24,120 nucleotides of DNA from positions 1-24,120 of IMG/VR virus record IMGVR_UViG_3300031851_000183. One strand, 5' to 3'. Below are positions 5,906 through 21,474 of the stretch, one piece after another (position 1 is the first letter of the stretch; each line of letters opens with the position of its first letter). This DNA comes from a virus. The notes under the pieces are model-generated. The model was not told the origin of the DNA, ran no database searches, and saw nothing but the letters and a program-made list of their open reading frames with translations. A program made the position numbers and the translations under genes.

Positions 5906-5954
5906 GTAAAATATATTACACCAAAATATTTTTTTTTGTGTATCTTATTTTAAG
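5906..5954. promoter_or_regulatory. Divergent intergenic promoter region
   Basis: The 49 bases between the divergent holin gene and the plus-strand cassette are extremely AT-rich, with a run of nine T on the plus strand. On the minus strand GTGTAA (5921-5916) begins 16 bases before the holin ATG. On the plus strand GTGTAT (5938-5943) begins 17 bases before the ATG at 5955. Both operons must start here or be read from further away; neither start has a clear ribosome binding site. Exact promoter elements cannot be assigned with confidence. Confidence 0.45.
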
Positions 5955-7115
5955 ATGGGGGAACATCGAAAAGACCTTGCGGAAGCAGAAGCTTTTGCCA
6001 AAAAATACTGTAATCCAGAGGATAGTGAAATCATCTCTGATTTAGATCGTCATGCAAGGGAAACAGCATGGGCTTTATTACAGAGGATTAAACATCTGGA
6101 ACAGAAATCTTGTGTTTGTGAAGAGTGCGGTAGTGAAGTAGAAGACGAACCTATAGAGGAACAGGTTACAGAAGAAGAAGTTAAAGTAGAAAAGAATAAG
6201 GCCCAAGAAGTAAAGGCTGAAACTCCTGAGACTTCTACTATGGATAAGTTATCGGAGATAGCCGAGAAGAATAAAGATATTTTAGATAAAGCTGCGAAAG
6301 GTACCGCTGCTGCAGCCGCTGCTGGAGCAACAACTCAAACTGCAAGTGCCGCGACTGGGCTAAGCGCATTTGTCCAAGAGACTACTCAAAAAATAGCGAC
6401 TATTGGAGTCGCAGGAACTATGTCCATAGGTAGTGGAGCTTACTTTCAAGCCAAGACAACAAAAGAAAAAGGTACTGAAATCGCCGTTGTAGCAGAACAA
6501 GAGCATAAAGTGTTTTCTAATTTAAATGATTTTACTGAAACGACAATTGGCTTCCAACCTTTTGGAGGAGTCACCGAAGCAATTGTAGAATACGCCGAAA
6601 AAGGTTATGGAGATGTCGTCGGTACATCTGAAGAAGGTTACGAAGGAAGCGAAGAAGGAGAAGATGAAGGATCTAGTGGTGAAGAGGGAGAGGGCGAAAC
6701 GTCAAATGAAGAAACCTCTAACGAGGGAGAAGGAAATGAAGGCGAACCTACAGAAGAAAATAATAAAGAAGGCGAAGGAGAAGCCGTTAAAGAAGAGGAA
6801 TCTGTAGAAACCGAAGAGAAAACAGAAGAAGAATCCAAAGAAGAACCCGAAGAAGAACCCGAAGAAAAGGAAGAGTCTGAAGAGGAGGAGCCTGAGGAAG
6901 AAGCCGAAGAGGAAGAATCCGAAGAGAAAGAATCCGAAGAGAAAGAAGCCGAAGAGGGAGAAGCCGAAGATGAAAAAGCCGAAGAGGAAGAGTCTGAAGA
7001 GGAAGAGCCTGAAGAGGGTGAAAAGAAAAAAACAGATCTAGAAGACTCAGAAGAAACAATAGAACTAGAAGAAGATGATCAGGTCACTCAAGTCCCTGAT
7101 GTTATAACAAGATAA
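5955..7115 (+). CDS. Acidic Glu-rich protein of unknown function, 386 residues
   Basis: I do not recognise this gene. Residues 1-52 look helical. A cysteine cluster CVCEEC (C53, C55, C58) could bind a metal. Residues about 113-165 are Ala/Gly/Thr-rich and could form one or two weakly hydrophobic helices (KGTAAAAAAGATT, then IGVAGTMSIGSGAYF). From about residue 225 to 372 the chain is dominated by Glu with Ser, Gly, Pro and Lys in short imperfect repeats such as EESEEKESEEKEAEEGEAED. Such tails are usually disordered and very negatively charged. It is the first gene of a three-gene plus-strand operon, followed after 5 bases by a small membrane protein gene. It could be a DNA-mimic-like or cation-binding protein, or a virion protein; none of these is demonstrated. 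Confidence 0.7.
   Translation: MGEHRKDLAEAEAFAKKYCNPEDSEIISDLDRHARETAWALLQRIKHLEQKSCVCEECGSEVEDEPIEEQVTEEEVKVEKNKAQEVKAETPETSTMDKLSEIAEKNKDILDKAAKGTAAAAAAGATTQTASAATGLSAFVQETTQKIATIGVAGTMSIGSGAYFQAKTTKEKGTEIAVVAEQEHKVFSNLNDFTETTIGFQPFGGVTEAIVEYAEKGYGDVVGTSEEGYEGSEEGEDEGSSGEEGEGETSNEETSNEGEGNEGEPTEENNKEGEGEAVKEEESVETEEKTEEESKEEPEEEPEEKEESEEEEPEEEAEEEESEEKESEEKEAEEGEAEDEKAEEEESEEEEPEEGEKKKTDLEDSEETIELEEDDQVTQVPDVITR
6634..7056 (+). repeat. GAA-rich low-complexity coding repeat
   Basis: This purine-rich stretch is made of imperfect units of GAAGAG, GAAGCC and GAATCC, encoding EE, EA and ES steps. Units of about 15 bases such as GAATCCGAAGAGAAA recur between 6913 and 6960. It creates long open frames on the opposite strand that are artefacts. 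The pattern suggests expansion by replication slippage. Confidence 0.7.
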
Positions 7116-7120
7116 TTATT

Positions 7121-7312
7121 ATGGAAGATCTATTTGATAAAATACTAGCTCCTTATATGGGGTCAATGCCTGAGTTTATTATTTCTATACTAGGGCTTCT
7201 TGGAACACTTTCTTACATAGTGCCAGAAAATAGCAAGCTAGGCAGAATACTTGGCAAAATTACTGGCAATCTAGGAAAACTTAAAAACTACTTACTTAAA
7301 AAGAAAAAATGA
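7121..7312 (+). CDS. Small membrane protein, 63 residues
   Basis: One hydrophobic segment spans about residues 17-34 (PEFIISILGLLGTLSYIV). It is followed by a Pro-Glu-Asn turn and a basic, probably amphipathic tail (GRILGKITGNLGKLKNYL, then KKKK). The protein likely sits in the inner membrane with its tail in the cytoplasm. It lies 5 bases after the acidic protein gene and its stop overlaps the next start as ATGA, so the three genes are co-translated. Its size would fit an antiholin, a second holin or a superinfection-exclusion protein. None of these can be chosen from the sequence. Confidence 0.6.
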   Translation: MEDLFDKILAPYMGSMPEFIISILGLLGTLSYIVPENSKLGRILGKITGNLGKLKNYLLKKKK

Positions 7313-8064
7313 AAAAACTTGCCCCTCTAATCTTACCATTATTATTCCTAATACCTTTGTCTAAAGCTGCTGTTGTCACCTTTACTGGAGGCAACGCTAT
7401 TTTAGTAGATGGCATAGAAAATCCTACAGAAAACCCAAATATCGCTGTTACTGATGAAAGTCAAAGGTATCAAGGGGTTTCTAGCTACCAAGAAGGAGAT
7501 GTAATTCTAGATTATGTTTCTCCAAATGAAAATTGGCAAATGCAAACTGTAGGAAATTATTATGACGATGGGAATGATGTCATACATGGTCATTGGTCCT
7601 CCCTATCTTCTATAGAAATTTATAGAGAGGACGATGTAGCCTTCGATTTACAATTCTTTTCTCTCACTTCTAATACTGAAATAGGAGGAGGAGCTTCTAC
7701 AGGGAATGAAGACATAGCCATCCAAGGTTTCTTGAAAGGCAAAGCAGTCACTCAGTTATTCAGCTTAGGTTCTGAAGATTGGGGTGGCGAATTTCAAGAT
7801 GTATTCTTGCCAGCGGAATTCGACAATGTCGATAAAGTTGTAATCAAAGACTTGGGTCAATGGCAAGAAGGAACTTGGTGCGCTGATTGTAACTCCGCTT
7901 TCTGCTTTGGAATGGACAACTTCGTATTTGACGAAGTAGTCCCAGAAGAGTTTATCGTTGGCAATTCTGTTCAACTAGAAGTCACAAGCTTACCCGAAGC
8001 TAGCGCCATATTGTTTGCTGCTATACCAATGATATTGTTATTAAGTAAAAAAAGACGCTCATAA
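7309..8064 (+). CDS. Secreted protein with PEP-CTERM-like C-terminal sorting signal, 251 residues
   Basis: Residues 1-20 are a clear Sec signal peptide (KK, then a Leu/Pro-rich core, with likely cleavage after SKA). The C-terminus has the three parts of a PEP-CTERM signal: a Pro-Glu pair (P229, E230), a hydrophobic stretch (about 232-245) and a basic end KKRRS. The canonical box is VPEP; here it is LPEA. In bacteria this tail is processed by exosortase and the protein goes to the cell surface. The mature region looks beta-rich and ends with CFGMDNFVFDEV, which resembles the FGMDN-type strand of PEP-CTERM jelly-roll proteins. It contains three nearby Cys (WCADCNSAFC). It is last in the plus-strand operon, before a strong terminator. 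Secretion is well supported; exosortase processing is inferred. Confidence 0.72.
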   Translation: MKKLAPLILPLLFLIPLSKAAVVTFTGGNAILVDGIENPTENPNIAVTDESQRYQGVSSYQEGDVILDYVSPNENWQMQTVGNYYDDGNDVIHGHWSSLSSIEIYREDDVAFDLQFFSLTSNTEIGGGASTGNEDIAIQGFLKGKAVTQLFSLGSEDWGGEFQDVFLPAEFDNVDKVVIKDLGQWQEGTWCADCNSAFCFGMDNFVFDEVVPEEFIVGNSVQLEVTSLPEASAILFAAIPMILLLSKKRRS

Positions 8065-8081
8065 ATAAACATAAATAAATG

Positions 8082-8112
8082 AAAACGGCATCCGTAAGGG
8101 ATGCCGTTTTTT
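8082..8112 (+). terminator. Strong, possibly bidirectional rho-independent terminator
   Basis: AAAACGGCATCC (8082-8093) and GGATGCCGTTTT (8099-8110) form a perfect 12-base stem with loop GTAAG, ending in a run of six T on the plus strand (8107-8112). It lies 18 bases after the plus-strand operon and 3 bases past the end of the converging minus-strand lipoprotein gene. On the minus strand the same stem ends in four T, so it may stop transcription from both sides. Confidence 0.92.
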
Positions 8113-8114
8113 GT

Positions 8115-8363
8115 TTAATCGAAAAGTTCTCTTTCTAATTTCCTATATCTAGCATCAGAATGCCAGACTTCATCACTTTGAGGGGTGTACGTCCCCTCCT
8201 GAGTCTGGACTGGAATCCCCGCCTTGAGCTTTAAGGAAGACGGCTGATATATGTTTAAAGTCGTCGTTTTCGGACTTGAGCCGCCGCCGCAGGAGGTCAG
8301 CCCGATCAGAGGAGTTACTATCACCAGCAGCCCGTAATTCTTCAATTTCATTAATGAGTTCAT
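8115..8363 (-). CDS. Small outer-membrane lipoprotein, candidate o-spanin (Rz1-like), 82 residues
   Basis: The protein has a short basic N-terminus, a hydrophobic core (GLLVIVTPLIGL) and a lipobox-like LTSC with the lipid-bearing cysteine at residue 25, followed by GGGSS, which favours outer-membrane sorting. The mature part of about 58 residues is Pro/Thr/Ser-rich, then charged (PQSDEVWHSDARYRKLERE). Small lipoproteins that overlap a coiled-coil gene in another frame are typical of o-spanins, which with an inner-membrane partner fuse the two membranes at lysis in Gram-negative hosts. Its first 191 bases lie inside the gene at 8173-8469, in a different frame, as in lambda Rz/Rz1. It is last in its operon, before the terminator at 8082. 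The lipoprotein call is strong and the spanin role inferred. Confidence 0.7.
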   Translation of the reverse strand: MNSLMKLKNYGLLVIVTPLIGLTSCGGGSSPKTTTLNIYQPSSLKLKAGIPVQTQEGTYTPQSDEVWHSDARYRKLERELFD

Positions 8364-8469
8364 TTTTTATGTTTCTATGGTTATTTTTAATTTCAAAAAA
8401 AGCCAATTTATTCCTTAATTCAAGGTACAGTTTAAGGCTTTGAGCTAGAGTTTTAATTAAAGACATCAT
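8173..8469 (-). CDS. Small coiled-coil protein, candidate i-spanin-like partner, 98 residues
   Basis: An amphipathic N-terminal helix (SLIKTLAQSLKLYLELRN) is followed by charged helices rich in Asn, Glu, Arg and Lys (about residues 28-85) that probably form a coiled coil. There is no strong membrane segment, which weakens an i-spanin call; i-spanins normally have one near the N-terminus. The open frame extends upstream to TTG at 8517, but the ATG at 8469 is preferred: it lies 8 bases after the hldD stop and has AGAAGAAG just before it. The 3' two thirds overlap the lipoprotein gene in another frame. The pair could be a spanin complex, or this gene could be an unrelated lysis-region protein. 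Confidence 0.55.
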   Translation of the reverse strand: MMSLIKTLAQSLKLYLELRNKLAFFEIKNNHRNIKNELINEIEELRAAGDSNSSDRADLLRRRLKSENDDFKHISAVFLKAQGGDSSPDSGGDVHPSK

Positions 8470-8476
8470 GCTTCTT

Positions 8477-9277
8477 CTATATACACTCCAAAACCTGTTT
8501 CCACTCCATCTCCCCAATTACAGAGGTTAACTTAGTTATATCTGCCTTAGTGAACTTTTGATACTGACCCTTTAGGTTCGAAGGCATAGTAATCTGTTTA
8601 ACTTTAGCCCCAGAGTTATCAGCCATCTTGTCAGCAATGTCTTTAAATGAAACAGAATTACCAGTCCCGACATTAAAAATACCAGAGTCATCATGATGAA
8701 GCATACGATAGTGCACCTCACAAACGTCTTCGACGTTAACAAAATCTCTGCTTGCTTTGGTCCTAAAAACTTTGATCTCTCCATCTTCCCGAACTTGTTT
8801 GATAAATTTTGTTATCGGACTAGCCTGTTCGCCTTTGTCCTCTTCGTGCGGACCATAGACATTAAAATATCTAAATCCTTGATATGGATGATCTTCATTC
8901 AAGAGCCAATTGTCAAACATATATTTACTATAAGCATAAGGACTTAATGGAGCGCAAAATTGATCCTCTTCAAAAGTCTCCGCTAATCCATAAACAGAGG
9001 CGCTGCTAGAATACTGGAATTTAACATCCATAGCTGCACATAACTGATAAAGAGTGCCAGAAAAGATAAAGTTCTCTTTTAAAATCTTTTTAAGGTCTGT
9101 CTCTGTAGTACTTGAGTTAGCCCCAAGGTGAATTACTGCGTCAATACCATTCAAAGGCGGCAAATCCCCACCATTTTTTATGTCATACTCTTCTACCTCG
9201 ATCCCCCTCTTTGACAAATAAGGGCAGAGGTTCTTACCAATAAAACCTTCACTACCAGTAACTAATACTCTTTTCAC
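8477..9277 (-). CDS. hldD: ADP-L-glycero-D-manno-heptose 6-epimerase (HldD-like)
   Basis: This is an SDR-family nucleotide-sugar epimerase. It has the NAD(P)-binding TGSEGFIG at residues 7-14, then GANSSTTETD (about 52-61), which is the signature of HldD/RfaD. The catalytic pair is Y114 and K118 in PYAYSK, followed by GFRYFNVYGP and DKGEQAS with K148 at the position of the second HldD base. GIFNVGTG and LKGQYQKFTKADI also match. HldD converts ADP-D-glycero- to ADP-L-glycero-manno-heptose, the inner-core LPS precursor in Gram-negative bacteria. At 266 residues it is shorter than the usual about 310, mainly between the first strand and the GANSS motif. The start is GTG at 9277, 12 bases after the upstream gene, with TATAAT 6 bases before it. 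A related sugar epimerase is the alternative. Confidence 0.82.
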   Translation of the reverse strand: MKRVLVTGSEGFIGKNLCPYLSKRGIEVEEYDIKNGGDLPPLNGIDAVIHLGANSSTTETDLKKILKENFIFSGTLYQLCAAMDVKFQYSSSASVYGLAETFEEDQFCAPLSPYAYSKYMFDNWLLNEDHPYQGFRYFNVYGPHEEDKGEQASPITKFIKQVREDGEIKVFRTKASRDFVNVEDVCEVHYRMLHHDDSGIFNVGTGNSVSFKDIADKMADNSGAKVKQITMPSNLKGQYQKFTKADITKLTSVIGEMEWKQVLECI

Positions 9278-9289
9278 AGAGTCATTATA

Positions 9290-10261
9290 TTAAAGATCTC
9301 CCTCGTCTTCAATAACAATTTCCACTGTATTCAAGAAGGGATAAGCATTTAACAAATCTTGATGTTCAGCAAAAGACTCATCATCCCAGCACCATTCTGA
9401 AAATTTCTCTTCATCATCCCAAGCTAGAACGTCTTCTGATGCCATTGAACTAACTGGCTTTTTAGACCAGAATTTGCAACTCCAGTACCTTGGAGTAGTT
9501 TTATCTTTAGCTGTATCACACTTATGTCTGGCCCTAAAGCTTCTACGACGATCAGGGTCATCACGCTTGATCTCCATATTAGGATCACCAAACTTTACCA
9601 TAATCACATTACCAGTCTTTGGGTTTTTAACATAAACCCCAAACTTCTTTTTCCCACCCTTGAGTCTAAAAGGCTTATTTAAAGTCTTTTTCTCTGCTTC
9701 AGAGTAATCTATATCTTCAATCTCTTGATCAGAATCTGCAGAAGCGTCAACCTTAACAAAGTCTAAACGAGCTAAGGCGAAATCCAGTTCATCAAAATCC
9801 ACGAAAGCCTTGTCCTGTTCTTCTATGTAGTATTCCTCTGAACCTTTAGCTACATCCTGATCAGCAGCACGGTAAGATTCCTTCACCTTACCACCACGCA
9901 ACATCTTCAAAAACATATTGACCCTAGCCATCGCCCACTGACCTCTGGTCTTATTCGGACGGTGACTAGAGCTAAATGCTCCCGCACCACGGCGGTATAT
10001 TTTTTTAAGTTGAGATAAAGTGGCTTTTTTAGAATACTTCTCGTTATGCTCTTTTACTTTATTCTTAAGGGCCGTAACGACCTTTTCTGAAAAAGCTATT
10101 TTCTTGCCATCTTTACCCGCACTTCCTTTTTCGTTCTTACTAGAACCCTTTTTACGCTCACTAGGCTTAGAGGGAGTTTGCGCTCCACTCTTCGGCCCAG
10201 AACGTTTTGCAGACTGAGATTTAAGAAAATTCTTTGCTTCTTTAGAAAAATCGTATTCCAT
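9290..10261 (-). CDS. Conserved phage protein, possible virion or assembly factor, 323 residues
   Basis: Residues about 1-55 are a disordered Lys/Ser/Gly-rich segment. Residues about 56-125 form a compact basic helical domain with RRGAGAFSSSHRP and GQWAMARVN, a pattern I recall from several phage structural proteins. After an acidic linker (about 145-192), residues 197-266 contain KKFGVYVKNPKTGNV, FGDPNMEIKRDDP, RRRSFRARHKCD and YWSCKFW. I recognise this domain as widespread in large phages, sometimes attached to prohead or head-related proteins, but I know no proven function. The tail is acidic. ATG at 10261 is preferred over a TTG one codon upstream; GTGTAA begins 15 bases before it. It lies between small unknown genes and hldD. 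Confidence 0.6.
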   Translation of the reverse strand: MEYDFSKEAKNFLKSQSAKRSGPKSGAQTPSKPSERKKGSSKNEKGSAGKDGKKIAFSEKVVTALKNKVKEHNEKYSKKATLSQLKKIYRRGAGAFSSSHRPNKTRGQWAMARVNMFLKMLRGGKVKESYRAADQDVAKGSEEYYIEEQDKAFVDFDELDFALARLDFVKVDASADSDQEIEDIDYSEAEKKTLNKPFRLKGGKKKFGVYVKNPKTGNVIMVKFGDPNMEIKRDDPDRRRSFRARHKCDTAKDKTTPRYWSCKFWSKKPVSSMASEDVLAWDDEEKFSEWCWDDESFAEHQDLLNAYPFLNTVEIVIEDEGDL

Positions 10262-11080: not shown

Positions 11081-13363
11081 TTATGAGATTTTATCTAAAT
11101 TAATTTCAGATTCATTTAGGGTTATCTGACCACAAATGAATTTATTTATTTTTTCTTCAAACCTTTCCTCAAAATCAACCAAACTCTTAGATTCTTTCGC
11201 AAACTTTTTCAAAAACCCTAAAGAAAAAACAATTTCTATGTCATTAATTTGCAAATCTAAATTTATCTTTTCTAGCTTATGATAAAGAACTCTAAATATA
11301 TCCTTCTTCCGCAAAGGACTTAAAAAAACATTGTAATCAAATAACGAAACCAATTCTTTAAAAACCGAAGCTACGGGAGTTTCAGAACTGGAATTAAAAC
11401 CCATAGAATTATCATTTTCTATTCCACTAGTGACAAATATTTTTGAGTTTGAAAAATCTGCAATATCTCCATCTGGCATCTGCAACTTCCCCTCCTTTAA
11501 TATTTGAGCGAATATCGTTTTTACAGAAGCATGTACTTTATGGAAATCATCTATTATGATTACACTATTGGGATGAATGATAATCTTTTCGCATAGAGAA
11601 GTATTGTTATTTCTTTCTGGAGATATTTTAAATTTAGCATATTCATCTGAGAAATGAACCCCACTATAATTCAGTACATTGACCCCATTCTTCTCTAGAT
11701 TGTCCTTCAGCACAGAACAAAAAAATGTCTTCCCTGTCGATTCAGCACCTGTAACACAATAGACACTTGGTGCAGACCCTTTTTTATAAACCCCATAATT
11801 AGATAGAGAAACGGATTCCATTAAATCATCTATAACTTTATTATGACCAACGAACTTAGACTTCAATCCCTTGGAAAGATCTGACCGAATATTAAATTTA
11901 CATAATGGGTTCTCTTTCTTTGAGAAAAAATCTTTTAAGTGTTGTGTCGTCACACTAGGAGAATTTTTCTGCATGTCTTCCCCCCATTCCATCAATTTGT
12001 CACTCATTAAGGAGATTAAATGTTTTGTTTTTACTTTGTCAGAAACGCCCGTAATGATCTCCCCCTGCAAATCTTTAATTGATGGATCTATCTCCCAATA
12101 ACTGAGCTTAGATTGAGCGCCACAGTGGTCAATGACATCAATAGCCTTATCTGGATAAAACTTATTAGGAAGATACTTCTCACAATAATCTATAACACTG
12201 TTAACAAAATCGAAACTATATTCAACCCCGTGAAAATCCTCGTAATAAGAGACTATGGTCGGTATGATTTGCTTCATTTGAAACTTAGACGGCTCTTTTA
12301 TTACAACTCTTTCGAAGCGCCTATCCAAAGCCGTATCTTTCTTAATCGTACTTGTATACTCATTAATTGTTGTAGCTCCGATGCAACTAATTGTACCACG
12401 AGCAAGCTCAGGCTTTAAAATATTAGAAGCCTCTAAGGAATTTTCTGTAGTCCCCCCTGCGCCAACCAAAGTATGAATTTCATCTATAAACAAAATAATA
12501 TTCTCATACCTTTTAACCTCATTAACAAAGTTCTCTAACCTTTCCTCAAATTGGCCTCTATATTGAGTGCCAGCGACCATACTAGAAAGGCTCAAAGAAT
12601 AAATAACCTTGTTAGCTATCAGCTCTGGAGCCTCACCGCTTACGATCTTCGCTGCCAAGCCTTCGACTAAAGATGTCTTGCCAGTCCCTGCTGGGCCAAC
12701 CAAGATAGCATTTGGCTTCTTTTTCCTACAAAGAATTGTCGCAATCTCAGAAATCTTATCGTCAAAATCTACAATTTTATCGAATTCATTCTTAGCTGCT
12801 TTGGCGTTTAAGTTCTCAGCAAACTGATCTAAGATAGGATTGCTGTCAAACATGTCCACCCAGTTTTCAGTACTAAGTGGCGTTAAATCACTTAAAACAT
12901 CTTCATCATAATTATCATCAAAATCCTCATCTTTAGAAAACAGAGTTATGTCTGAAATCAAACCTGTAATATCATCAATATCCAAGACACCCAAGAGAGC
13001 CTTTGGGAGACAATCTTCATTAAAGAAATTCAACAAAATTATCTCTGGGGTCACATAATCTAATTCAAACAATTCTGCTTGAACAACCTTGCAGTTATCT
13101 ATAAAGTCATTCAACTTAGAAGTATACTTGCTGGATACAACTTTATTAGGGCGCTTCCTTTCCAATACTTTAGTGGAAGATAATATAAGCGCATCCACAC
13201 AATCATATTTATCAAGGATAGTCTCACAAGACAAACTAAGATCCTGAATAAAACAATGGAAGAATAAATCTAAATCTACCCCGTTCCTATCCAATCTTAT
13301 CGCCAGCTCTTGAGACTTTTGGAAAACGGATTTTATTTGAGGGGTCGTAGGGAAATCATTCAT
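11081..13363 (-). CDS. ClpA/ClpC-like Hsp100 AAA+ unfoldase, 760 residues
   Basis: This is a double-ring AAA+ protein of the ClpA/ClpC type. Residues about 1-145 form a divergent Clp N-domain. Ring 1 has Walker A GPAGTGKT (223-230), pore loop GTQYRG with Y268, Walker B LFIDEIH (D294, E295) and arginines R348/R349 in DTALDRRFERV. There is no ClpB-type middle domain. Ring 2 has Walker A GAESTGKT (539-546), but Walker B is IIDD (D605, D606) instead of DE, the GYVG pore loop is not visible, and the arginine of the usual NRxD motif is missing (SLFDYN). MGF (654-656) sits where ClpA/ClpC/ClpX carry the ClpP-docking loop. Such proteins unfold substrates for ClpP. It follows the polymerase gene as TAATG. 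It could remodel replication proteins or redirect host ClpP; the role is inferred. Confidence 0.85.
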   Translation of the reverse strand: MNDFPTTPQIKSVFQKSQELAIRLDRNGVDLDLFFHCFIQDLSLSCETILDKYDCVDALILSSTKVLERKRPNKVVSSKYTSKLNDFIDNCKVVQAELFELDYVTPEIILLNFFNEDCLPKALLGVLDIDDITGLISDITLFSKDEDFDDNYDEDVLSDLTPLSTENWVDMFDSNPILDQFAENLNAKAAKNEFDKIVDFDDKISEIATILCRKKKPNAILVGPAGTGKTSLVEGLAAKIVSGEAPELIANKVIYSLSLSSMVAGTQYRGQFEERLENFVNEVKRYENIILFIDEIHTLVGAGGTTENSLEASNILKPELARGTISCIGATTINEYTSTIKKDTALDRRFERVVIKEPSKFQMKQIIPTIVSYYEDFHGVEYSFDFVNSVIDYCEKYLPNKFYPDKAIDVIDHCGAQSKLSYWEIDPSIKDLQGEIITGVSDKVKTKHLISLMSDKLMEWGEDMQKNSPSVTTQHLKDFFSKKENPLCKFNIRSDLSKGLKSKFVGHNKVIDDLMESVSLSNYGVYKKGSAPSVYCVTGAESTGKTFFCSVLKDNLEKNGVNVLNYSGVHFSDEYAKFKISPERNNNTSLCEKIIIHPNSVIIIDDFHKVHASVKTIFAQILKEGKLQMPDGDIADFSNSKIFVTSGIENDNSMGFNSSSETPVASVFKELVSLFDYNVFLSPLRKKDIFRVLYHKLEKINLDLQINDIEIVFSLGFLKKFAKESKSLVDFEERFEEKINKFICGQITLNESEINLDKIS

Positions 13364-15918
13364 TATTTTTTTAAATCCTTCAGCTTCATCATAATCTTTG
13401 TATCGACCACTCTCGCTGAGTTCACAAAACTAGTATCACGATTCTTGCTCGCATTCAAGACCAATATTGCATCTTTAGACATTTTGTAAGTATCCAGAAA
13501 GTCCGTGAGTTTTTCTTCTCTTGAATTATCCATCAGTATGAATCTAGAAGATGCTGTATTATCCGAAGCTTCTATGATCATATACTTATTCCCATTCTGG
13601 GAGATCTTAGTAAAGAAATCTTTTACTTGGCAAACTGTTTTATAATTAGTCTGCTCTGGAAGATCCTTAACCTCCTTCAAAGAGTTCAGAATACCATAAT
13701 TCTCTTCGAAACATTCTTTAAGATCATGAGAGTAACTGTACCCAAGCAAAGAATTTTCATACCACCAATTAGAAAATTTTTGATAAGACTTATTCTTATC
13801 GTAGATCTCCCTATAATTAGAGAATTTTTTCAAGAAGGTTTTAAACCTACTCTCTTTCATTAGCACTCTGTTATCGTCAGCGAGAATGCCCATTTCAACA
13901 GCCTGAGCTATAGCATGCAATATATCCTCTCCCAAAACCTCTTTCAAAAGAATAAAATTCCTCTTCTCTCTATCTGTTAGGATATTAAAAGCTTGGCTTT
14001 CTAAAACTAATCGACTTCTTGTTTTAGTTGACTCATCCATCGCTCCAGCCTGTATTAATGCGGCCAATACTGATATATTAATTCCACACTCTTTAGCTGC
14101 CACGAACACTTCATACTTACTGTCGAAACTCTTACCTCTAAAAGAGACCAGTCCGTCTATCGATTTAGCAGAGATACCTTTAATACTATTTAAGCCATAC
14201 CTAATATTATTATCCTCAATAGAAAAATTGATTTGAGACTTAAATAAACTAGGAGGCAAGAGCCGTACGCCAAAATCGCTAAGCTCCTCATGAACAGAAG
14301 TTATTACAGACAATGGTTCTGGATCAAATTCAGAGGACTCTAGAACAGAAAGAAAGAACTCCTTCGGGTGTTTATACTTTAAGTAAACTGTCTTTGCGGC
14401 TAACTCTGCATAAGCAAAACTATGGGATTTATTAAACGAATAATCCGCTGAAGCTTGCAACGCATTCCAGTAAAAATCGCTTATCTCTTCGTCTAATCCC
14501 AGCTCATCTGCCGCTTCATAAATACGCTTCTTCCAAGAGGGCATCTCTTCAGTCTTTTTCTTTCCAACGATACGGCGGAGAGTCTCTGCCTCCTCCAGAG
14601 TTAAACCAAAAACTTTATTTGCAATCTGCATCAACTGTTCTTGATACAAAATAACGTTCTTAGACCAAGACAATATCTTATCTAATTCTGGATGCAAGTC
14701 TAGTACTGTCGGAGAATGCTTCTGACGAACATACTCCTCTACAAACTGTAAAGCCCCAGGCCGTGCAAGAGCGACAACATCAGACAACTCATTAAGGTTA
14801 TCTGGCTTCACATCCCTACAAACCGTAAAGTTTGTACTAGCGGATATTTGGAAAAGACCTTCTGGATGATTATAATCCTGAAGGGTTTCATAAATAAAAG
14901 GATCATTCGGATCTATATCATCTATACCAATCCCTATCTTTTCACATGTCTTATGGGCTATCGTTAATGTTTTAAGACCAAGGATATCAAACTTAACCAT
15001 TAAATCCGCAACATCATGCATATTATATCCTGTAATTAAATCCCCATCCTTAGTCCTTTGAATTGGCACTACATTACGGATATCTTGAGAGCATATGGCG
15101 ATACCAGAAGGATGGACTCCAGTGTTCTTGATTAGATTTTCAATCTTCTTTGCATGAAAAAAAGTCCTCTTGTGTTTCTTACACCAAGATGAAAACTTAT
15201 CACTCTCTTCTTCTGCGTTAGCAAGAGAAGAAACCTTGCCGTGAAGCTTTGGAATCATATCACTAACAGCATTCGCTTGCTCCTCCTTAGCTTCATCAAA
15301 ATATTTAGTAGCTTCCCTAATGCACAATTTAGAACTAAAAGTATTAAAGGTTAATATTTTTGCCGTCTTACCGTCATGCTTTTTTTCAATGTATTCGATA
15401 ACCTTTTGCCTTTTTTCATAACTAATGTCTGAGTCAACATCAGGGAGCAAGCTACCAACAAGGAATTCTTTATTCCTAACATCATATACCTTTTTAGCCC
15501 TGCTCTTCGAAACAAATCTCTCAAAGAAAAGGTTGTGGGGGATTGGATCAATATTGGTAACACCTAACAAATATAAAACCAAAGACCCCGCCGCTGATCC
15601 TCGACCAGCACCAGTGGGAATTTTATTTTCATGACAAAAATTTAAGACATCCCAATTAAGTAAGATATAATCTGTAAAGCCCAACTCTTCAAAAGTCTCA
15701 AGCTCTTGCTTCGCACGATCAAAATACTCCTTCTTATTGGAAAATTTAGTGATGCCTTTATCCCTTAGTCCTTTACGGGTAAGTTCGTACATTATTTCCT
15801 TGGTTGAACTATCCTCAACGAGACCTATGGACTTTAATATTTTATTACTGACCAAGGTTTTAGGTAACTCTACCCCAACTGGCTCGCAATCATCATATAT
15901 TGTAAAATCTTCAAACAT
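13363..15918 (-). CDS. DNA polymerase III alpha catalytic part (DnaE-like, without PHP domain), 851 residues
   Basis: The protein begins about where the PHP domain of DnaE ends. It has GAGRGSAAGS (103-112), the palm motif PDVDSD with catalytic D160 and D162, and the third aspartate D311 in KFDILGLKTLT. It also has ALARPGAL (383-390), YQEQLMQIA (425-433) and the nucleotide-binding fingers motif YSFNKSHSFAY (493-503). A helix-hairpin-helix region is near YGLNSIKGI (574-582) and an OB-like region lies near the end. All three metal-binding aspartates are kept, so it should polymerise DNA; it is the likely replicative polymerase of the phage. I see no clear QLxLF clamp-binding motif. The PHP part is encoded separately at 16519-17220, and the exonuclease gene between them ends in TAATG at this start. 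PHP plus this protein total 1084 residues, close to DnaE (about 1160). Confidence 0.93.
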   Translation of the reverse strand: MFEDFTIYDDCEPVGVELPKTLVSNKILKSIGLVEDSSTKEIMYELTRKGLRDKGITKFSNKKEYFDRAKQELETFEELGFTDYILLNWDVLNFCHENKIPTGAGRGSAAGSLVLYLLGVTNIDPIPHNLFFERFVSKSRAKKVYDVRNKEFLVGSLLPDVDSDISYEKRQKVIEYIEKKHDGKTAKILTFNTFSSKLCIREATKYFDEAKEEQANAVSDMIPKLHGKVSSLANAEEESDKFSSWCKKHKRTFFHAKKIENLIKNTGVHPSGIAICSQDIRNVVPIQRTKDGDLITGYNMHDVADLMVKFDILGLKTLTIAHKTCEKIGIGIDDIDPNDPFIYETLQDYNHPEGLFQISASTNFTVCRDVKPDNLNELSDVVALARPGALQFVEEYVRQKHSPTVLDLHPELDKILSWSKNVILYQEQLMQIANKVFGLTLEEAETLRRIVGKKKTEEMPSWKKRIYEAADELGLDEEISDFYWNALQASADYSFNKSHSFAYAELAAKTVYLKYKHPKEFFLSVLESSEFDPEPLSVITSVHEELSDFGVRLLPPSLFKSQINFSIEDNNIRYGLNSIKGISAKSIDGLVSFRGKSFDSKYEVFVAAKECGINISVLAALIQAGAMDESTKTRSRLVLESQAFNILTDREKRNFILLKEVLGEDILHAIAQAVEMGILADDNRVLMKESRFKTFLKKFSNYREIYDKNKSYQKFSNWWYENSLLGYSYSHDLKECFEENYGILNSLKEVKDLPEQTNYKTVCQVKDFFTKISQNGNKYMIIEASDNTASSRFILMDNSREEKLTDFLDTYKMSKDAILVLNASKNRDTSFVNSARVVDTKIMMKLKDLKK

Positions 15919-16532
15919 TATAAATTCATGTGTTTTTTCAGCGCCTTAAAAACCTCATAGCACTTCTGGTTATCATATAGAGCGTTGTGTAAAAGATCTT
16001 CTTCAAAATCTATCCCAAAAAATTTAAGCAATTGGTTTTGAGACACTCTAGACTTAAGGGATCGATCATGTATGATCTTATACTGCCAACTTAATAAATT
16101 GCCTTTAGGCTTATCTAATTCTTCCCTGTAAGCCTTACCGTAAGCCCTAGTATCATAGATCCTTTCCAAATAACTATAGTCTGGAGCCTCACCCAAAGAT
16201 CTTTGCATTCCTGCCACCATGTAAACATCAAAGCCTAATAAATTTTGACCAACAACCTTATACTCAGGATTGAATAAATCTTTTTTAAAATCAGCCCAAA
16301 CATTTTTCAAAGGCTCCTTCCTCTCGTTATACTCGTCCCAACTAAAACCAGTCAAATGCTCTACCTTTTTATTAATTTGTAGATCCTTATGACTAATATA
16401 TCGATCATTCTCTTTTAAAATCCTATCTCCCTGACAGATGAGCCAAGAGACTTGCCAAGTACGAGAAGAATGAAGGTTTAACCCTTCAGTCTCAGTATCA
16501 AATACTAAATATTTTTGGTTATACGGTAGCAT
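15918..16532 (-). CDS. DEDDh 3'-5' proofreading exonuclease (DnaQ-like), 204 residues
   Basis: This is a DnaQ-type exonuclease. The first motif is VFDTETEG with D12 and E14, the second acidic residue is D102 in GQNLLGFDVYM, and the last motif HNALYD supplies H182 and D187, making it DEDDh. It removes mismatched bases at the 3' end, so it is the likely editing partner of the polymerase encoded next to it. The frame also has an ATG at 16559 (213 residues). I prefer ATG at 16532, which has GGGAG 10 bases upstream; this start still overlaps the end of the PHP gene by 14 bases. Its stop overlaps the polymerase start as TAATG. No clamp-binding motif stands out at the C-terminus. Confidence 0.9.
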   Translation of the reverse strand: MLPYNQKYLVFDTETEGLNLHSSRTWQVSWLICQGDRILKENDRYISHKDLQINKKVEHLTGFSWDEYNERKEPLKNVWADFKKDLFNPEYKVVGQNLLGFDVYMVAGMQRSLGEAPDYSYLERIYDTRAYGKAYREELDKPKGNLLSWQYKIIHDRSLKSRVSQNQLLKFFGIDFEEDLLHNALYDNQKCYEVFKALKKHMNL

Positions 16533-17220
16533 CTTTATAAGACTCCCAACAGAAATCATCTGAACAGAAGTGGTCTAAGTTTGGGTTTTGAAAAGTTGGC
16601 GCTCGCCCTTGAGATCTACTACAAGAAGCCTTATACATTTGGAAAGCCTCAAAATCATCTTTGTTATGATGAAGTATTGTTTTGACCATCTTTGTCCCAA
16701 CGTCTAAGCCTTCTATCACAGAACGAATCTGAAAATCAAAAGGGTGATTATTATCTTCAATGAAAAAAATCGGATCTAACCCCTTGAGGCCCAAATGAGA
16801 TAAGCCAAAGTGAAATAAATTATTATATATATATGAGTCGTAAAAGGGTACAGCCACCTTGACATCCTTGAAGTCTTCTACAGAATAATGGCTCAATATC
16901 AAGCTATTCCTATCATTCAATGACGCATCAGAATATAAACGCTTTATTGTTTTAAGACCCTCATTGTTCCTAGCAAAAAAAACTAACTTACTCGACCTTT
17001 CGTTTTCTACCATCTCGTCATTTAGGACCGACAATCTAATACCGAAAACCAGAGAGACGTTGTTCTCTTGGAATAACTGATTAAAGACCCTGAAGCCATA
17101 AAAAGAGTCTTCAACCATCACGACCCTTTCTAGAGAGTTAAGCTGAGCTATATTTAGAATCTTCTCAGCGGTCAGAATAGACTTCCCGACACTGAATTGG
17201 CTCTTGAAGAGTGGCGTCAT
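16519..17220 (-). CDS. Stand-alone PHP domain of DNA polymerase III alpha, degenerate, 233 residues
   Basis: The protein aligns by eye with the N-terminal PHP domain of DnaE. FKSQFSVGKS (5-14) takes the place of the HSDYSxxDG motif. MVED (35-38) matches the AITD strand, VSLVFGIRLSVL (55-66) matches GIKPIxGxE, KLVFFARNNEGLKTIKRLYSDAS (78-100, given in two parts: KLVFFARNNEG and LKTIKRLYSDAS) matches the LLAxNxxGYxNLxxLxSxA stretch, and FCSDDFCWESY (218-228) matches the FKSxEEM end. The metal-binding histidines of the first motif are absent, so phosphatase or exonuclease activity is unlikely, as in E. coli DnaE. It probably associates with the polymerase protein as a structural domain and may hold the exonuclease. 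The ATG at 17220 follows the nuclease gene by 9 bases. Confidence 0.75.
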   Translation of the reverse strand: MTPLFKSQFSVGKSILTAEKILNIAQLNSLERVVMVEDSFYGFRVFNQLFQENNVSLVFGIRLSVLNDEMVENERSSKLVFFARNNEGLKTIKRLYSDASLNDRNSLILSHYSVEDFKDVKVAVPFYDSYIYNNLFHFGLSHLGLKGLDPIFFIEDNNHPFDFQIRSVIEGLDVGTKMVKTILHHNKDDFEAFQMYKASCSRSQGRAPTFQNPNLDHFCSDDFCWESYKDATV

Positions 17221-17229
17221 GAAAGAAAC

Positions 17230-18276
17230 CTATAGAAGATCCATAGGCTTGTCAAACGAAAAAGCTGGGCAACCCTTATATTTTTTCTCTTCGATCCTAG
17301 AACCCTTTCCCTCCTGAAGCAGAACCTCAAGATCTTCCTTGTTGTAAGATGATTTCAAAAATGACCCATCTTCTTTTAATAAGTGGAAATAATCGAATCC
17401 AAATTTAAATGGGCAATGCCACATTAAATCTCCATTCTTTTTTAACTGACCTACCCTATTTGCCCGACCACAAACTATCTTTCCAGCAAACCCCTCCTCT
17501 TTTGAAGGATAACCCTTGTCCCAAGCCAAACCACTAGTAGCGGTCTTCTCATTGAAATTATTTATAACTTTTTGTACATCAGTTAAGAAATATTCAAATC
17601 CCTCTAAATCCAAGTCATCTAATGGTTCCATTTCCAAAAGACCCTCTCCATTCAAATCGAACTTAAGAAACAAGAACTCCATCCTCCTCTTTAAGTACTC
17701 TGGGTATAAGTATTTCACAGCAAGACAATACATGTAATCCTGCATATTATCGCTATACTCTTTCCCTTCGAAGATGCTTTTGGATGTTTTAAAGTCCCGT
17801 ATAATGGCAGTTTTTTTTCTTTTAAATAAAAACAATTTATCTATGAACCCTAAAATGCGATAATCCTTGTCCCCATCCTTTACTTTTATATCGAAGTCTT
17901 TTTCTGAAATAGACTCAGTTGGCTTGCTGCTAGTATCGCCAAAGAAATCGAAATTCAATCCCTCAACAGTCATCCTGTTAATAAGATCCATATTCTCAAA
18001 ATCATCTATCTCATACTTTTTGGCATACGCATCCACCATCCTTTTAATAGATGGACTAACATTAATATCCTGAGCTTTAATTATAGCCTTATAGTGCTTC
18101 CTATGGCGAGGGTTTCCCAAGTTCTCAAATACAGCATGACAAATTGTACCACGCAAAGACCCATGATTAGATTTATCGGGGAGACGCATGTGGTACTTAG
18201 CCCAATACTGCCAAGTACAAGTTTGCATTGTCTTAATGCGAGAAGCAGATAGAGGCTTGTTTTCAGATTTCTCCAT
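17230..18276 (-). CDS. PD-(D/E)XK nuclease of the RecB/Cas4 type, 348 residues
   Basis: The N-terminus has LSASRIKTMQTCTWQYWAKY and then RGTICHAVFENL, whose His (H47) matches the GxxxH motif of RecB-family nucleases. The catalytic core is LGFIDKLF (D146) and IIRDFKTSK (D161, K163), followed by QDYMYCLAVKY, the usual QxxxY helix. C20 near the start and C269, C288 and C336 near the end could hold an iron-sulphur cluster as in Cas4 and AddB, though the spacing is not standard. It likely cuts or resects DNA in phage recombination or in host DNA breakdown. The frame extends to TTG at 18300; ATG at 18276 is preferred because it reduces the overlap with the primase gene to 14 bases. Confidence 0.82.
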   Translation of the reverse strand: MEKSENKPLSASRIKTMQTCTWQYWAKYHMRLPDKSNHGSLRGTICHAVFENLGNPRHRKHYKAIIKAQDINVSPSIKRMVDAYAKKYEIDDFENMDLINRMTVEGLNFDFFGDTSSKPTESISEKDFDIKVKDGDKDYRILGFIDKLFLFKRKKTAIIRDFKTSKSIFEGKEYSDNMQDYMYCLAVKYLYPEYLKRRMEFLFLKFDLNGEGLLEMEPLDDLDLEGFEYFLTDVQKVINNFNEKTATSGLAWDKGYPSKEEGFAGKIVCGRANRVGQLKKNGDLMWHCPFKFGFDYFHLLKEDGSFLKSSYNKEDLEVLLQEGKGSRIEEKKYKGCPAFSFDKPMDLL

Positions 18277-19309
18277 AATGGAAGTCGTATTTCTTCTCAA
18301 ACTTCCTTAAGTTAGAAGAAAAGGTTTTGTTGACACCTCGTTTATTCATCTCTTTAGCGAAATCAATAACGTTAGTCATTGATTCATTATGAGACATGAC
18401 TCCACAATATTCAACAAATTTATCTAACTGCTCTTTGCTCATATCTCCAAAATCATTTTCAGAAGGCGGAGCAAAAAATATCTTTTCAAAATCCATCTGA
18501 TCAGACAACTTGAATATCGATTTTATAGCCCCCTCAAAACCCCTGTTAAATTCTGAATTAAAATCATTATTGAAGGATAAGAAAACCTTGTCTAAAGGAA
18601 GCCCGTTTAACCTTGCAATAAATTTTGGGGATATATTAAGACCGAAAGAAACTAAAACATTCTTAATGCCAGAATCAAAAAGAGAAATGCAATCTCCTAT
18701 CGACTCAACAATATAAACACTCCTCTCTTTCTTTATGCAAGCCGCTACCTGATCTATAGAGTAATATGGATAAAACCAATCAGAACAACGACCATTATGC
18801 AACCACTTAGGTCTAGGGTCTTCAGTAACCTTTCTCCCCGAAAAGCCGTGTATGAGGCCATCAGAGCGAAATACTGGGAATATAACACGTTGATACAACT
18901 TACCTGACATAGCAAGGCCACATTGGAATTGTTTCATCGTATCTTCCGTAATGCCTTTCTCTAAATAAAAATCATAATGAGGAAGAAGTCTACTCAAACA
19001 AGATTTAGGATATGTCTTCTCTTCACTCAAAAGATTCTTCTTAGCGGTTCTATGTTGAATATTTACACTAATATCCTTCAAATAAGAACTTAAAATAGTC
19101 TTATCGTTAGTGTTAAGAGTCTTCTGCAGTAAAGCTTCGAAAGGGAGAAACATTGAGTCCTCCACATAATCCTTCCAAACCCCTGTATCCTTGTAAATTT
19201 GTAGAGCTGTAGAATTGTCTCCTGACCTATAGATAGCACTAGTCCTCCAATATGAACCATGATCCTTAAGCCTGTAGCCAAGATCCTCAAGTACTTGTTT
19301 GTAATCCAT
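18263..19309 (-). CDS. DnaG-like DNA primase with cysteine-free N-terminal domain, 348 residues
   Basis: The core is of bacterial primase type. RVIFPVFRSDGLIHGFSGR (about 141-159) matches the RIMFPIxDxxGxVIGFGGR motif before the Toprim domain. VYIVESIGDCISLFDSGIKN (about 198-217, E202 and D206) is the Toprim strand-helix motif, and SFNND (about 245-249) stands in the place of the DxD motif. The N-terminal YWRTSAIYRSGDNSTALQIY and GVWKDY resemble the CHC2 zinc-ribbon layout but have no cysteines, so this domain cannot bind zinc in the normal way. It makes RNA primers for the polymerase at 13363-15918, working with the DnaB-like helicase next to it. A TTG lies one codon upstream of the chosen ATG. 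The gap to the helicase gene is 4 bases. Confidence 0.82.
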   Translation of the reverse strand: MDYKQVLEDLGYRLKDHGSYWRTSAIYRSGDNSTALQIYKDTGVWKDYVEDSMFLPFEALLQKTLNTNDKTILSSYLKDISVNIQHRTAKKNLLSEEKTYPKSCLSRLLPHYDFYLEKGITEDTMKQFQCGLAMSGKLYQRVIFPVFRSDGLIHGFSGRKVTEDPRPKWLHNGRCSDWFYPYYSIDQVAACIKKERSVYIVESIGDCISLFDSGIKNVLVSFGLNISPKFIARLNGLPLDKVFLSFNNDFNSEFNRGFEGAIKSIFKLSDQMDFEKIFFAPPSENDFGDMSKEQLDKFVEYCGVMSHNESMTNVIDFAKEMNKRGVNKTFSSNLRKFEKKYDFHYGEI

Positions 19310-19313
19310 CAAC

Positions 19314-20852
19314 CTAGGGGGTCAAAATCACGGGAATATCTTCCGAATCATTATTCCTTACACGAACATCCTGATTATTCACTGAATCTACAATGTCCTG
19401 CAAGTCTCCCCTCTCTGTAACCCTAAAGTTCTTAATCTCAAGATTAATGAAATTGTTTTTGTTCGATCCATCTGGCATCTCAACAGGATTAATTGCACGA
19501 AGAGCCTCTTTGCCTAAATGACGAGCCTTTAAGTTAATTAATTTATGAGTACCGAAACGGTCCCCCTCTTCGTGGATCTCATCAGCAATCTTCCGACGAA
19601 GTAAAAATAAGTGAGAACAAAACTGAGTGATGCCATCTGAAAGAGAAACAACGCTCTCATCATCCACTATAGAATCGGCTCCCCTGTTCCCAGTAATACC
19701 AAGCCTATTTGCCTGAACAGATGTCATCATTGAGACACAAGGCTTCCCATCAAAACAAAGATCTCTATGGATTGTCTGCTTGAATTTGTGAACCATAGAC
19801 GCAACCTGCTGCCAACCATCATTTTTCCCTAAATTATTGAAGTCAGTCTTAATGTAATCAAAACTAAAAATCATGCGCTTCCCTCGACCAACCTTTGAAT
19901 AATAAAACCTCTTCAAAAGAGAGCACATCTCATCAGCAGACATTCCTGCCACATTCTCATAGTAGAACTTCATGTTCTTAATTTTACTCCAAGCAGACCT
20001 CACCTTATCCACCACCTCTTCCGCAGTCCAATCCCCATAACTTGAAGTCCTCCACTTACCGCTTTGCAGTAAAAATATAGGTATTCCTGTCATTGCCGAA
20101 CATTGACGGAATATAAGTTCCTCTTCACTCATCTCTCCATTATCAAAATGGAGTACTGGGATCTCATATTTCGCAGCAGCCCTCGTGGTATAATCCATGC
20201 AAAACTGAGTCTTTCCCACTCCAGAACGAGCTACGATGACTGAGATATTACCCTCTAAAAGCAAAGAACCATAAATCTCATTAACCCTCTGGTGTGGACC
20301 CATCATCCCAGACTCTTCTACTGGGTTATTCCCTCTCTCCTCAACGACAGATTCCATTATCTCAAAAAGATTTACTGGCCCATCCTCATTAAACTCAAAT
20401 TGCTTAATGTTCTTGTTGTAGATTTCGTCTGCTTTATCTACGATTTCAGAATATTTTAAATTAGGATCAATCTTCTTGACAAATTTAGCTACATCCTTAC
20501 ACGAATGATATATTTCACGCCTCGCTGAGAACTTCTTTAACTCCTTAACAGAAGAAAGAAATATGTCTTCAGTTATCTTATGGAAAACTAAAGACCGTAT
20601 GTATTCCGCTAGATCAATACTGTCAGGGAAGCTAACCTTTAATTCATTAAGGCGAGGTATAAGAATTGTATCGTCAATCGTTTCTGCGTTATCAAGAGCG
20701 TTCTTGATTAGCTTAAAAATAGAGAGGTGTACTTGAGAATCCTCACTATAAAAGTCCTTCTCATTTAAAAAAATCGAAATCTCAGCCCACTTATGGGGAT
20801 GCTGTAAAAGACCTTTCAATACAGTCTTCTCCAAATCCATATTAGATATCAT
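19314..20852 (-). CDS. dnaB: Replicative DNA helicase, DnaB-like, 512 residues
   Basis: Residues about 1-110 form a DnaB N-terminal helical domain (DLEKTVLKGLLQHPH at the start). The C-terminal RecA-like motor has Walker A ARSGVGKT (208-215) preceded by SLLLEGNISVIV, a glutamate-bearing helix LHFDNGEMSEEEL (E240/E243-245), and Walker B MIFSFDYIKTD (D332). Further on lie SVQANR and a FRVTERGDL strand near the end. DnaB-family hexamers unwind DNA at the fork and call in the primase, whose gene follows 4 bases later. The length is close to E. coli DnaB (471) with about 40 extra residues. The start overlaps the upstream gene as ATGA. Confidence 0.92.
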   Translation of the reverse strand: MISNMDLEKTVLKGLLQHPHKWAEISIFLNEKDFYSEDSQVHLSIFKLIKNALDNAETIDDTILIPRLNELKVSFPDSIDLAEYIRSLVFHKITEDIFLSSVKELKKFSARREIYHSCKDVAKFVKKIDPNLKYSEIVDKADEIYNKNIKQFEFNEDGPVNLFEIMESVVEERGNNPVEESGMMGPHQRVNEIYGSLLLEGNISVIVARSGVGKTQFCMDYTTRAAAKYEIPVLHFDNGEMSEEELIFRQCSAMTGIPIFLLQSGKWRTSSYGDWTAEEVVDKVRSAWSKIKNMKFYYENVAGMSADEMCSLLKRFYYSKVGRGKRMIFSFDYIKTDFNNLGKNDGWQQVASMVHKFKQTIHRDLCFDGKPCVSMMTSVQANRLGITGNRGADSIVDDESVVSLSDGITQFCSHLFLLRRKIADEIHEEGDRFGTHKLINLKARHLGKEALRAINPVEMPDGSNKNNFINLEIKNFRVTERGDLQDIVDSVNNQDVRVRNNDSEDIPVILTP

Positions 20853-21070
20853 TGATCAACCCCCTTTTCAAGTGACAATTCTATCAATTTACTCAAAGCC
20901 ATATCCACACAGGAATTTTCAGTCTTTGTGGCGAAACTGGGTTGGCCCAAATCATTGATATAAAACAAAAAGAACCCCTTATTCCCTCCAGTAGGAGACC
21001 CTGTACAGTCATAGAGTTTAGTCAGCACACTCTGAGGTAACGTATTATCGCTTTTATCGAAAAGATTCAT
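20849..21070 (-). CDS. Small protein of unknown function in the replication operon, 73 residues
   Basis: I do not recognise this protein. It has two short strands (KGFFLFYINDLGQPSFATK) and a C-terminal helix (CVDMALSKLIELSLEKG), with two Cys and no membrane segment. It overlaps the nuclease gene upstream and the helicase gene downstream, each by ATGA. Its place between recA and dnaB suggests a part in replication or recombination, such as a mediator or loader, but nothing in the sequence shows this. Confidence 0.6.
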   Translation of the reverse strand: MNLFDKSDNTLPQSVLTKLYDCTGSPTGGNKGFFLFYINDLGQPSFATKTENSCVDMALSKLIELSLEKGVDQ

Positions 21071-21474
21071 ATTATGTCTAATTTCTTAAGTAACCGCTCA
21101 TCAATAGTATCCTTCTCTAGAATACGAACAAGCCTTATTTGATTAATTTCACAGAAATATTCCTTCTTCTCATCCCTCTGTAATTGAGCAAGAAAATTCT
21201 GTCTTGAGTTAGAGTGAAAGAATTTGTTGTATTGATAATGCTGATTACCGTCAACTTCTATAGCCATCTTAAGATTAGCATTATAAAAATCTAATGTCAT
21301 CCTTGTACCTAGGACGGGCATCTCTTCGAAAACAATATCTGCAACCCAGTGAGGATAAAGAAGATCTTTAACTTTTTTCTGGATTTTACTCCGACATTTT
21401 TTATCCCAATCAACCAAATACTTAGAAGATTTCTTTAACTTTTGCTCTCTCCCAGTGGTAGTTAAAAATATCAT
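21067..21474 (-). CDS. Small endonuclease of the Vsr/DUF559 type, 135 residues
   Basis: The core TLDFYNANLKMAIEVDGNQH (D62, E73, D75, H79) is the catalytic pattern of Vsr/DUF559-like PD-(D/E)XK nucleases. It is followed by QLQRDEKKEYFCEINQIRLV, the usual helix that ends in a strand with an Arg (LVRILE). The N-terminal 50 residues are basic and could contact DNA. The frame extends to 21501, but ATG at 21474 forms an exact ATGA overlap with the recA stop, so I take that as the start. A stand-alone nuclease between recombinase and helicase could act in recombination or as a nicking enzyme. The precise substrate is unknown. Confidence 0.72.
   Translation of the reverse strand: MIFLTTTGREQKLKKSSKYLVDWDKKCRSKIQKKVKDLLYPHWVADIVFEEMPVLGTRMTLDFYNANLKMAIEVDGNQHYQYNKFFHSNSRQNFLAQLQRDEKKEYFCEINQIRLVRILEKDTIDERLLKKLDII

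Follow-up and report, generated by a model that had tools for sequence, protein, structure and literature searches.

Gene layout of the locus

The window analysed in this study is a 24,120-base stretch of viral DNA, positions 1-24,120 of the IMG/VR virus record IMGVR_UViG_3300031851_000183. A first-pass annotation had proposed that three consecutive minus-strand genes carry a divided DNA polymerase III alpha, and open reading frames were found where it had placed them (16519-17220, 15918-16532 and 13363-15918). These genes, called PHP, Exo and Pol here, lie in the following setting:

21471-22598, minus strand: RecA/UvsX-like recombinase, upstream neighbour
19314-20852, minus strand: DnaB-like helicase, replication cluster
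18263-19312, minus strand: DnaG-like primase, replication cluster
17230-18300, minus strand: PD-(D/E)XK nuclease, a replication neighbour directly upstream of PHP
16519-17220, minus strand: PHP, a stand-alone PHP protein of 233 amino acids with a predicted DnaE-type fold, mapped metal ligands all replaced
16519-16532, minus strand: 14-base overlap of PHP and Exo, ATGCTACCGTATAA, in different frames
15918-16532, minus strand: Exo, a DEDDh 3'-5' exonuclease of 204 amino acids (D12, E14, D102, H182, D187) without an epsilon-like C-terminal tail
15916-15920, minus strand: junction of the Exo stop and Pol start, TAATG, with one base common to both
13363-15918, minus strand: Pol, a PHP-less DnaE-type polymerase of 851 amino acids with palm, fingers and HHH (catalytic D162, D164 and D311)
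11081-13363, minus strand: ClpA-like AAA+ ATPase directly downstream of Pol, a neighbour outside the replicase

The longest open reading frame for Exo begins at 16559; conservation among relatives begins at 16532, and the nine extra residues of the longer frame are absent from most relatives. This suggests that 16532 is most likely the Exo start, which makes the PHP/Exo overlap 14 bases. Of the 14 to 41 bases given earlier, the lower figure therefore stands, as does the TAATG junction, while the upper one falls away. The 14-base overlap probably leads to translational coupling. The PHROGs assignments of PHP, Exo and Pol agree with those of Pfam. Outside the three genes, the ClpA-like protein was directly 3' of Pol in 20/20 close relatives checked (L002-L021). 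The window also holds an HNH or homing-endonuclease-like gene (21067-21501), flanked by the genes for the DnaB-like helicase and the RecA-like protein, and two nucleotide-sugar epimerase/dehydratase genes (8477-9277 and 23047-24075), one of them strongly GDP-mannose 4,6-dehydratase-like.

Conservation of the three genes among relatives

Relatives were found by scans with Pol and with PHP, which returned viral contigs and four contigs in bacterial bins. Once duplicates were removed, 82 non-redundant triplets were retained, the window included, in one of which (L187) the contig ends within PHP; the Pol-bearing loci left out of this set were cut by contig ends, were duplicates or had an interrupted Pol (L060, L102). 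Pol of the relatives is 37-90% identical to that of the window. In all 82 triplets PHP, Exo and Pol are encoded separately, follow one another in that order and share a strand, so that the gene order first noticed in the window is found in related phages as well, and this fixed order is far beyond chance. Loci lacking this PHP were out of reach of the PHP-based scan; the scan with Pol has no bias toward this PHP, and no fused PHP-Pol member was present among the loci that it returned.

The spacing of the three genes ranges from overlap up to 3.4 kb. Overlap lengths vary among relatives, as much as 3.4 kb separates PHP from Exo in members such as L065, and some relatives have unrelated genes between members of the triplet, such as an RNA ligase (L065) or a cupin/JmjC protein (L188). 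Since the order is kept despite these insertions, it outlasts contact between the genes. Given the variable spacing and the inserted genes, a frameshift artefact is also excluded, as is a single chain arising from fixed-site slippage. The arrangement persists throughout a broad clade, made up of many uncultured phages, most of them marine, and is not transitional; the earlier suggestion of a state between fused and separate forms is thus not upheld.

Candidate LAGLIDADG-like homing-endonuclease genes lie between PHP and Exo in two relatives (L101, 4486-5400; L158, 6669-7691), which marks this junction as a target of mobile elements. The two interrupted Pol genes are a separate matter. In L060 (IMGVR_UViG_3300037487_002061, 5995-6597 and 6700-9042) Pol is probably fractured by a split intein exactly in the GRGS motif: on the N side '...GAGRG' is followed by CFVSGQ... 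(~92 aa) and a stop, and a C-part of 35 aa ending in ...GAAVHN precedes SAAGSL. L102 (IMGVR_UViG_3300037205_000062, 5950-8283 and 8907-10112) probably has a second split intein in Pol, between SFNK and S, whose N-part carries NUMOD4 and HNH_3 motifs, with other sequence between the halves. This site is presumably a few residues from the split-intein site of cyanobacterial DnaE.

Polymerase and exonuclease

Pol matched the Pfam families DNA_pol3_alpha (3.4e-60), finger (5.4e-35) and HHH_6. In a profile search against PDB structures it scored about 300 bits with DnaE and 24 bits with PolC, which bears out the first impression of a DnaE-like polymerase. The PHP domain is not in the Pol chain, being encoded by its own gene in all 82 triplets. 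Exo matched RNase_T in Pfam (5.9e-8), and its matches to DnaQ and to PolC-type exonucleases were about equally weak. The catalytic residues had been described as all kept, and this holds across the relatives: Exo D12, E14, D102, H182 and D187 and Pol D162 and D311 are present in 82/82 triplets and Pol D164 in 81/82, the exception being a change of Asp to Asn. No conserved or canonical clamp-binding motif (internal QxxLF) was found in Pol. Pol ends after a stretch that can be aligned to the C-terminal portion of short bacterial DnaEs, and a tau-binding domain therefore seems to be missing.

The stand-alone PHP protein

The PHP protein matched Pfam PF02811 with an E-value of 5.5e-5 and 24.0 bits, slightly under the curated threshold of 26.4, and a PDB sequence search with it returned nothing relevant. 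An AF2 model built on 57 family sequences (alignment A4) had a pLDDT of 90.4 and a pTM of 0.88. A first model from 16 close sequences had been poor (pLDDT 63), yet already matched Pol III alpha; the deeper alignment solved this problem. The 20 best PDB matches of the final model were bacterial Pol III alpha chains only, with a best E-value of 1e-11 (E. coli first) and TM scores of 0.68-0.81 over about 250 columns, the highest (0.81) with Thermus. PolC ranked 18th and 20th; the free PHP phosphoesterases came next, with TM scores of 0.33-0.45. Profile-profile comparison with the PHP domains of fused DnaEs gave a probability of 99.2% and was colinear over 228 columns, and the family HMM matches several bacterial DnaEs at their N-terminus. 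Based on the model and its PDB matches, the profile-profile comparison and the HMM matches, the 233-residue protein is a whole, uninterrupted PHP domain of the DnaE type. The proposal of a stand-alone PHP protein has therefore passed both profile and structure checks.

The metal site of active PHP exonucleases consists of nine ligands, HHDHEH[C/H]DH (PMC12926913). The ligand positions were mapped through Potty gp55, a PHP of the active type, by which eight of the nine could be placed. All eight are replaced in 57/57 PHP sequences, in agreement with the ligand loss noted earlier; the residues in the window are L4, K6, K13, D38, R62, K78, T181 and L183, and the replacements are mostly conserved residues within the family. 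In E. coli alpha five of the nine ligands are altered (PMC5636811), and when PHP and DnaQ are both present, PHP is the site that is lost (PMC12926913; PMC3666897). A dead PHP beside an intact Exo fits this published pattern of PHP loss where a separate DEDD exonuclease exists. PHP is also the fastest-evolving of the three proteins, with a mean identity of 45% compared to 56% for Pol.

Where the cut falls was read from alignments. FLPQFP occupies E. coli residues 277-282 (numbering is that of the Salmonella sequence plus 16), and its LP aligns with Pol L18-P19, which places Pol M1 near E. coli ~260, and the C-terminal end of PHP, in an alignment read by eye, resembles E. coli ~245-253. Taken together, PHP and Pol thus amount to a single DnaE core with no obvious gap, the cut lying near E. 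coli residues 253-260, in line with the PHP/Pol boundary named by the first-pass annotation. The E. coli alpha fragment 1-270 by itself behaves well and shows full epsilon binding, whereas the fragment 1-255 is insoluble (PMC3642679). Because the phage cut is close to that of the insoluble fragment, folding of PHP may depend on Pol residues.

Relation to other phages and known replicases

A tree of the Pol part was made from 62 rows, 32 of them split, by a quick search that left PolC out and gave several long branches. A branch with an SH-aLRT of 100 and a long stem of 1.72 changes per column sets the 32 split rows apart, and the bacterial DnaEs and other phage DnaEs fall outside this group. 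Of the DnaE and PolC phylogeny suggested earlier, this tree supplies the DnaE half, with the split clade set among DnaE sequences; PolC is absent from it. None of the INPHARED isolates is close: for alignments that cover most of Pol, identity reaches ~33% at most.

In nearly all known relatives, PHP and polymerase share a single chain. A parallel in gene layout is found in the Krampusvirus phages of Microbacterium (Potty, AnnaSerena), where a PHP gene stands directly upstream of a PHP-less DnaE gene as in the window, but with no exonuclease between them and with a PHP of the active type (121.8 bits; Potty Pfam 4.5e-35). In the Krampusvirus loci L280 (2800-6217) and L285 (3528-6879), which come from deposited isolates, this active-type PHP gene and the PHP-less DnaE gene after it are annotated just as DNA polymerase or DnaE-like. 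Potty is placed elsewhere than the split clade in the Pol tree, though an AU test did not reject its union with that clade (p 0.40). Its PHP is ~45-55% identical to fused actinophage DnaEs, and its Pol is 37% identical to the fused Indlulamithi enzyme compared to 25% to the window. This kinship with fused actinophage DnaEs, which given the AU test is the sole argument, tips the balance somewhat toward a Krampusvirus split independent of that of the window clade.

DnaE is likewise encoded in two or more genes in Cellulophaga phage phiST, Rossellomorea phage phiT1, Lactococcus phage AM2 and Corynebacterium phage P1201, but there the cut is within the polymerase part, and in phiT1 and AM2 PHP stays with the first DnaE part (Pfam-checked for both). 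Together with Krampusvirus, these phages show that splitting of DnaE is recurrent in phages. In Pseudomonas phage F8 (Pbunavirus) and Luteibacter phage Pluto an exonuclease gene adjoins DnaE as in the window, but the order is Exo then PHP-Pol and PHP is still fused (shown for F8).

The window proteins share the DnaE palm, fingers and HHH with bacterial Pol III alpha of the DnaE type, which has a separate DnaQ/epsilon (E. coli, Thermus), and E. coli also combines an inactive PHP with an active DEDDh exonuclease; the TM scores of the PHP fold with E. coli and Thermus are 0.76-0.81. In bacterial DnaE, however, PHP is part of alpha, whereas the window has a gene of its own for PHP, with that of Exo lying between it and the Pol gene. 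Also unlike E. coli and Thermus Pol III, Exo is without the epsilon tail, and no canonical clamp motif was found in Pol. PolC also has PHP, a DEDDh exonuclease and a C-family polymerase, but in one chain, with the exonuclease inside PHP and a polymerase of another subfamily. No papers on a PHP/Pol gene split in phages were found in the open-licence literature. Nor did that literature describe the whole combination, a triplet of genes with Exo central and PHP uniformly dead that is fixed in a broad clade; as only open-licence papers were covered, no priority is claimed.

Replication setting and hosts

In each of ten large relatives (G001-G010, 106-205 kb) there is a single C-family Pol and a single PHP of this family, and searches for polymerases of the A and B families gave no match. 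Nine of the ten have a clamp-loader-like open reading frame of ~307-328 aa that matches phrog_168, a model that also matches other AAA+ ATPases. No beta clamp was found in these ten records, which may be incomplete, and there was no match to T4-type clamp models, for which there was no positive control genome. A tail-sheath search gave no match, and a gp23 capsid search was uninformative, there being no control genome known to hold gp23. Contigs were present in Flavobacteriaceae, Flavobacteriales and Halobacteriovorax bins; as binning of phage contigs is unreliable, these groups are only weakly hinted at as hosts.

A probable three-subunit replicase

We consider it likely that the three genes encode an obligate heterotrimeric C-family replicase, in which a dead PHP subunit completes and stabilises Pol and holds Exo. 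PHP, normally the N-terminus of DnaE, would be made as a separate subunit that completes and stabilises Pol and gives Exo a platform, as the E. coli PHP domain does for epsilon; Exo would proofread and Pol synthesise, and the overlapping stop and start codons would couple translation and keep the three subunits in proportion. Pol III of E. coli owes stability to its PHP, and loss of the PHP ligands goes with the presence of a separate DEDD exonuclease (PMC3666897). Each proposed contact of PHP has support by analogy from the homologous E. coli arrangement, in which PHP binds epsilon and also lends stability to alpha. The computed support consists of the identity, completeness and order of the genes, the loss of the PHP site with the Exo and Pol sites kept, and the single PHP and C-family Pol in each of the ten large relatives. 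The physical assembly, the scaffold role and the translational coupling are inferred; gene order alone is no proof of a complex. The distances of PHP, Exo and Pol correlate at 0.90-0.96; any genes that share a genome should do so, which makes this weak support for the heterotrimer. Epsilon wraps round PHP by its C-terminal tail. As Exo is without this tail, its contact with PHP must differ from that in E. coli. A wider version, in which an obligate three-polypeptide replicase with PHP as a dedicated non-catalytic adaptor may work with a gp44/RFC-type clamp loader and an unrecognised clamp instead of beta, is a tentative proposal with somewhat less than an even chance.

The best surviving alternative, though rather unlikely, is that PHP has left the polymerase for another role in replication or repair and that Pol works without it. 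The distance of the gene from Exo in relatives such as L065 and the fast evolution of PHP would fit such a departure, but the fold is specifically that of a DnaE PHP and not of a free PHP phosphoesterase, the gene is always upstream on the same strand, its metal site is gone, and in bacterial replicases PHP is reported to be a strictly conserved, structurally integrated domain (PMC3666897). It is improbable that the PHP subunit retains catalytic activity through a new site: K6, K13/R, E37, D38, R62/K and K78 are conserved where the metal ligands were, but no ligand set is left, and the degenerate PHP site of E. coli can be purely structural (PMC3666897). The first-pass annotation had also pointed to PolC, and the PHP-Exo-Pol order does resemble the linear domain order of that enzyme. 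A PolC-like form, or an intermediate between PolC and DnaE, is nevertheless very improbable, as Pol is far closer to DnaE (300 against 24 bits), PHP is complete, uninterrupted and nearer to DnaE than to PolC, and the clade falls among DnaE sequences in the tree made without PolC. Equally improbable is the prospect that the pieces are joined into one chain during or after translation, by intein splicing or a programmed frameshift; two relatives (L060, L102) probably carry split inteins within Pol, but Pfam gave no intein (Hint) match in PHP, Exo or Pol of the window, overlap lengths differ among relatives and other genes intervene. The chance that a single PHP-Pol gene was broken by frameshifts introduced in sequencing or assembly, or that the genes are decaying, is negligible: the overlaps of a few bases are what a broken gene would give, but an entire exonuclease gene lies between PHP and Pol, the 81 other triplets have the same arrangement at 37-90% Pol identity, unrelated genes intervene and the active sites are strongly conserved, so that the relatives exclude the single-frame gene against which the first-pass annotation had cautioned.

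A three-subunit replicase thus appears to be the likeliest reading, as the first-pass annotation had thought possible. Published surveys describe PHP as universal or strictly conserved among the C-family replicases of bacteria (PMC12926913, PMC3666897). What PHP does where it is inactive is still debated. The phages described here offer a natural dissection of such an enzyme into three chains. With PHP as a separate protein, its scaffold role would be directly testable by adding or omitting one protein, and the large sequence family makes the contacts of PHP with Pol and with Exo searchable by coevolution.
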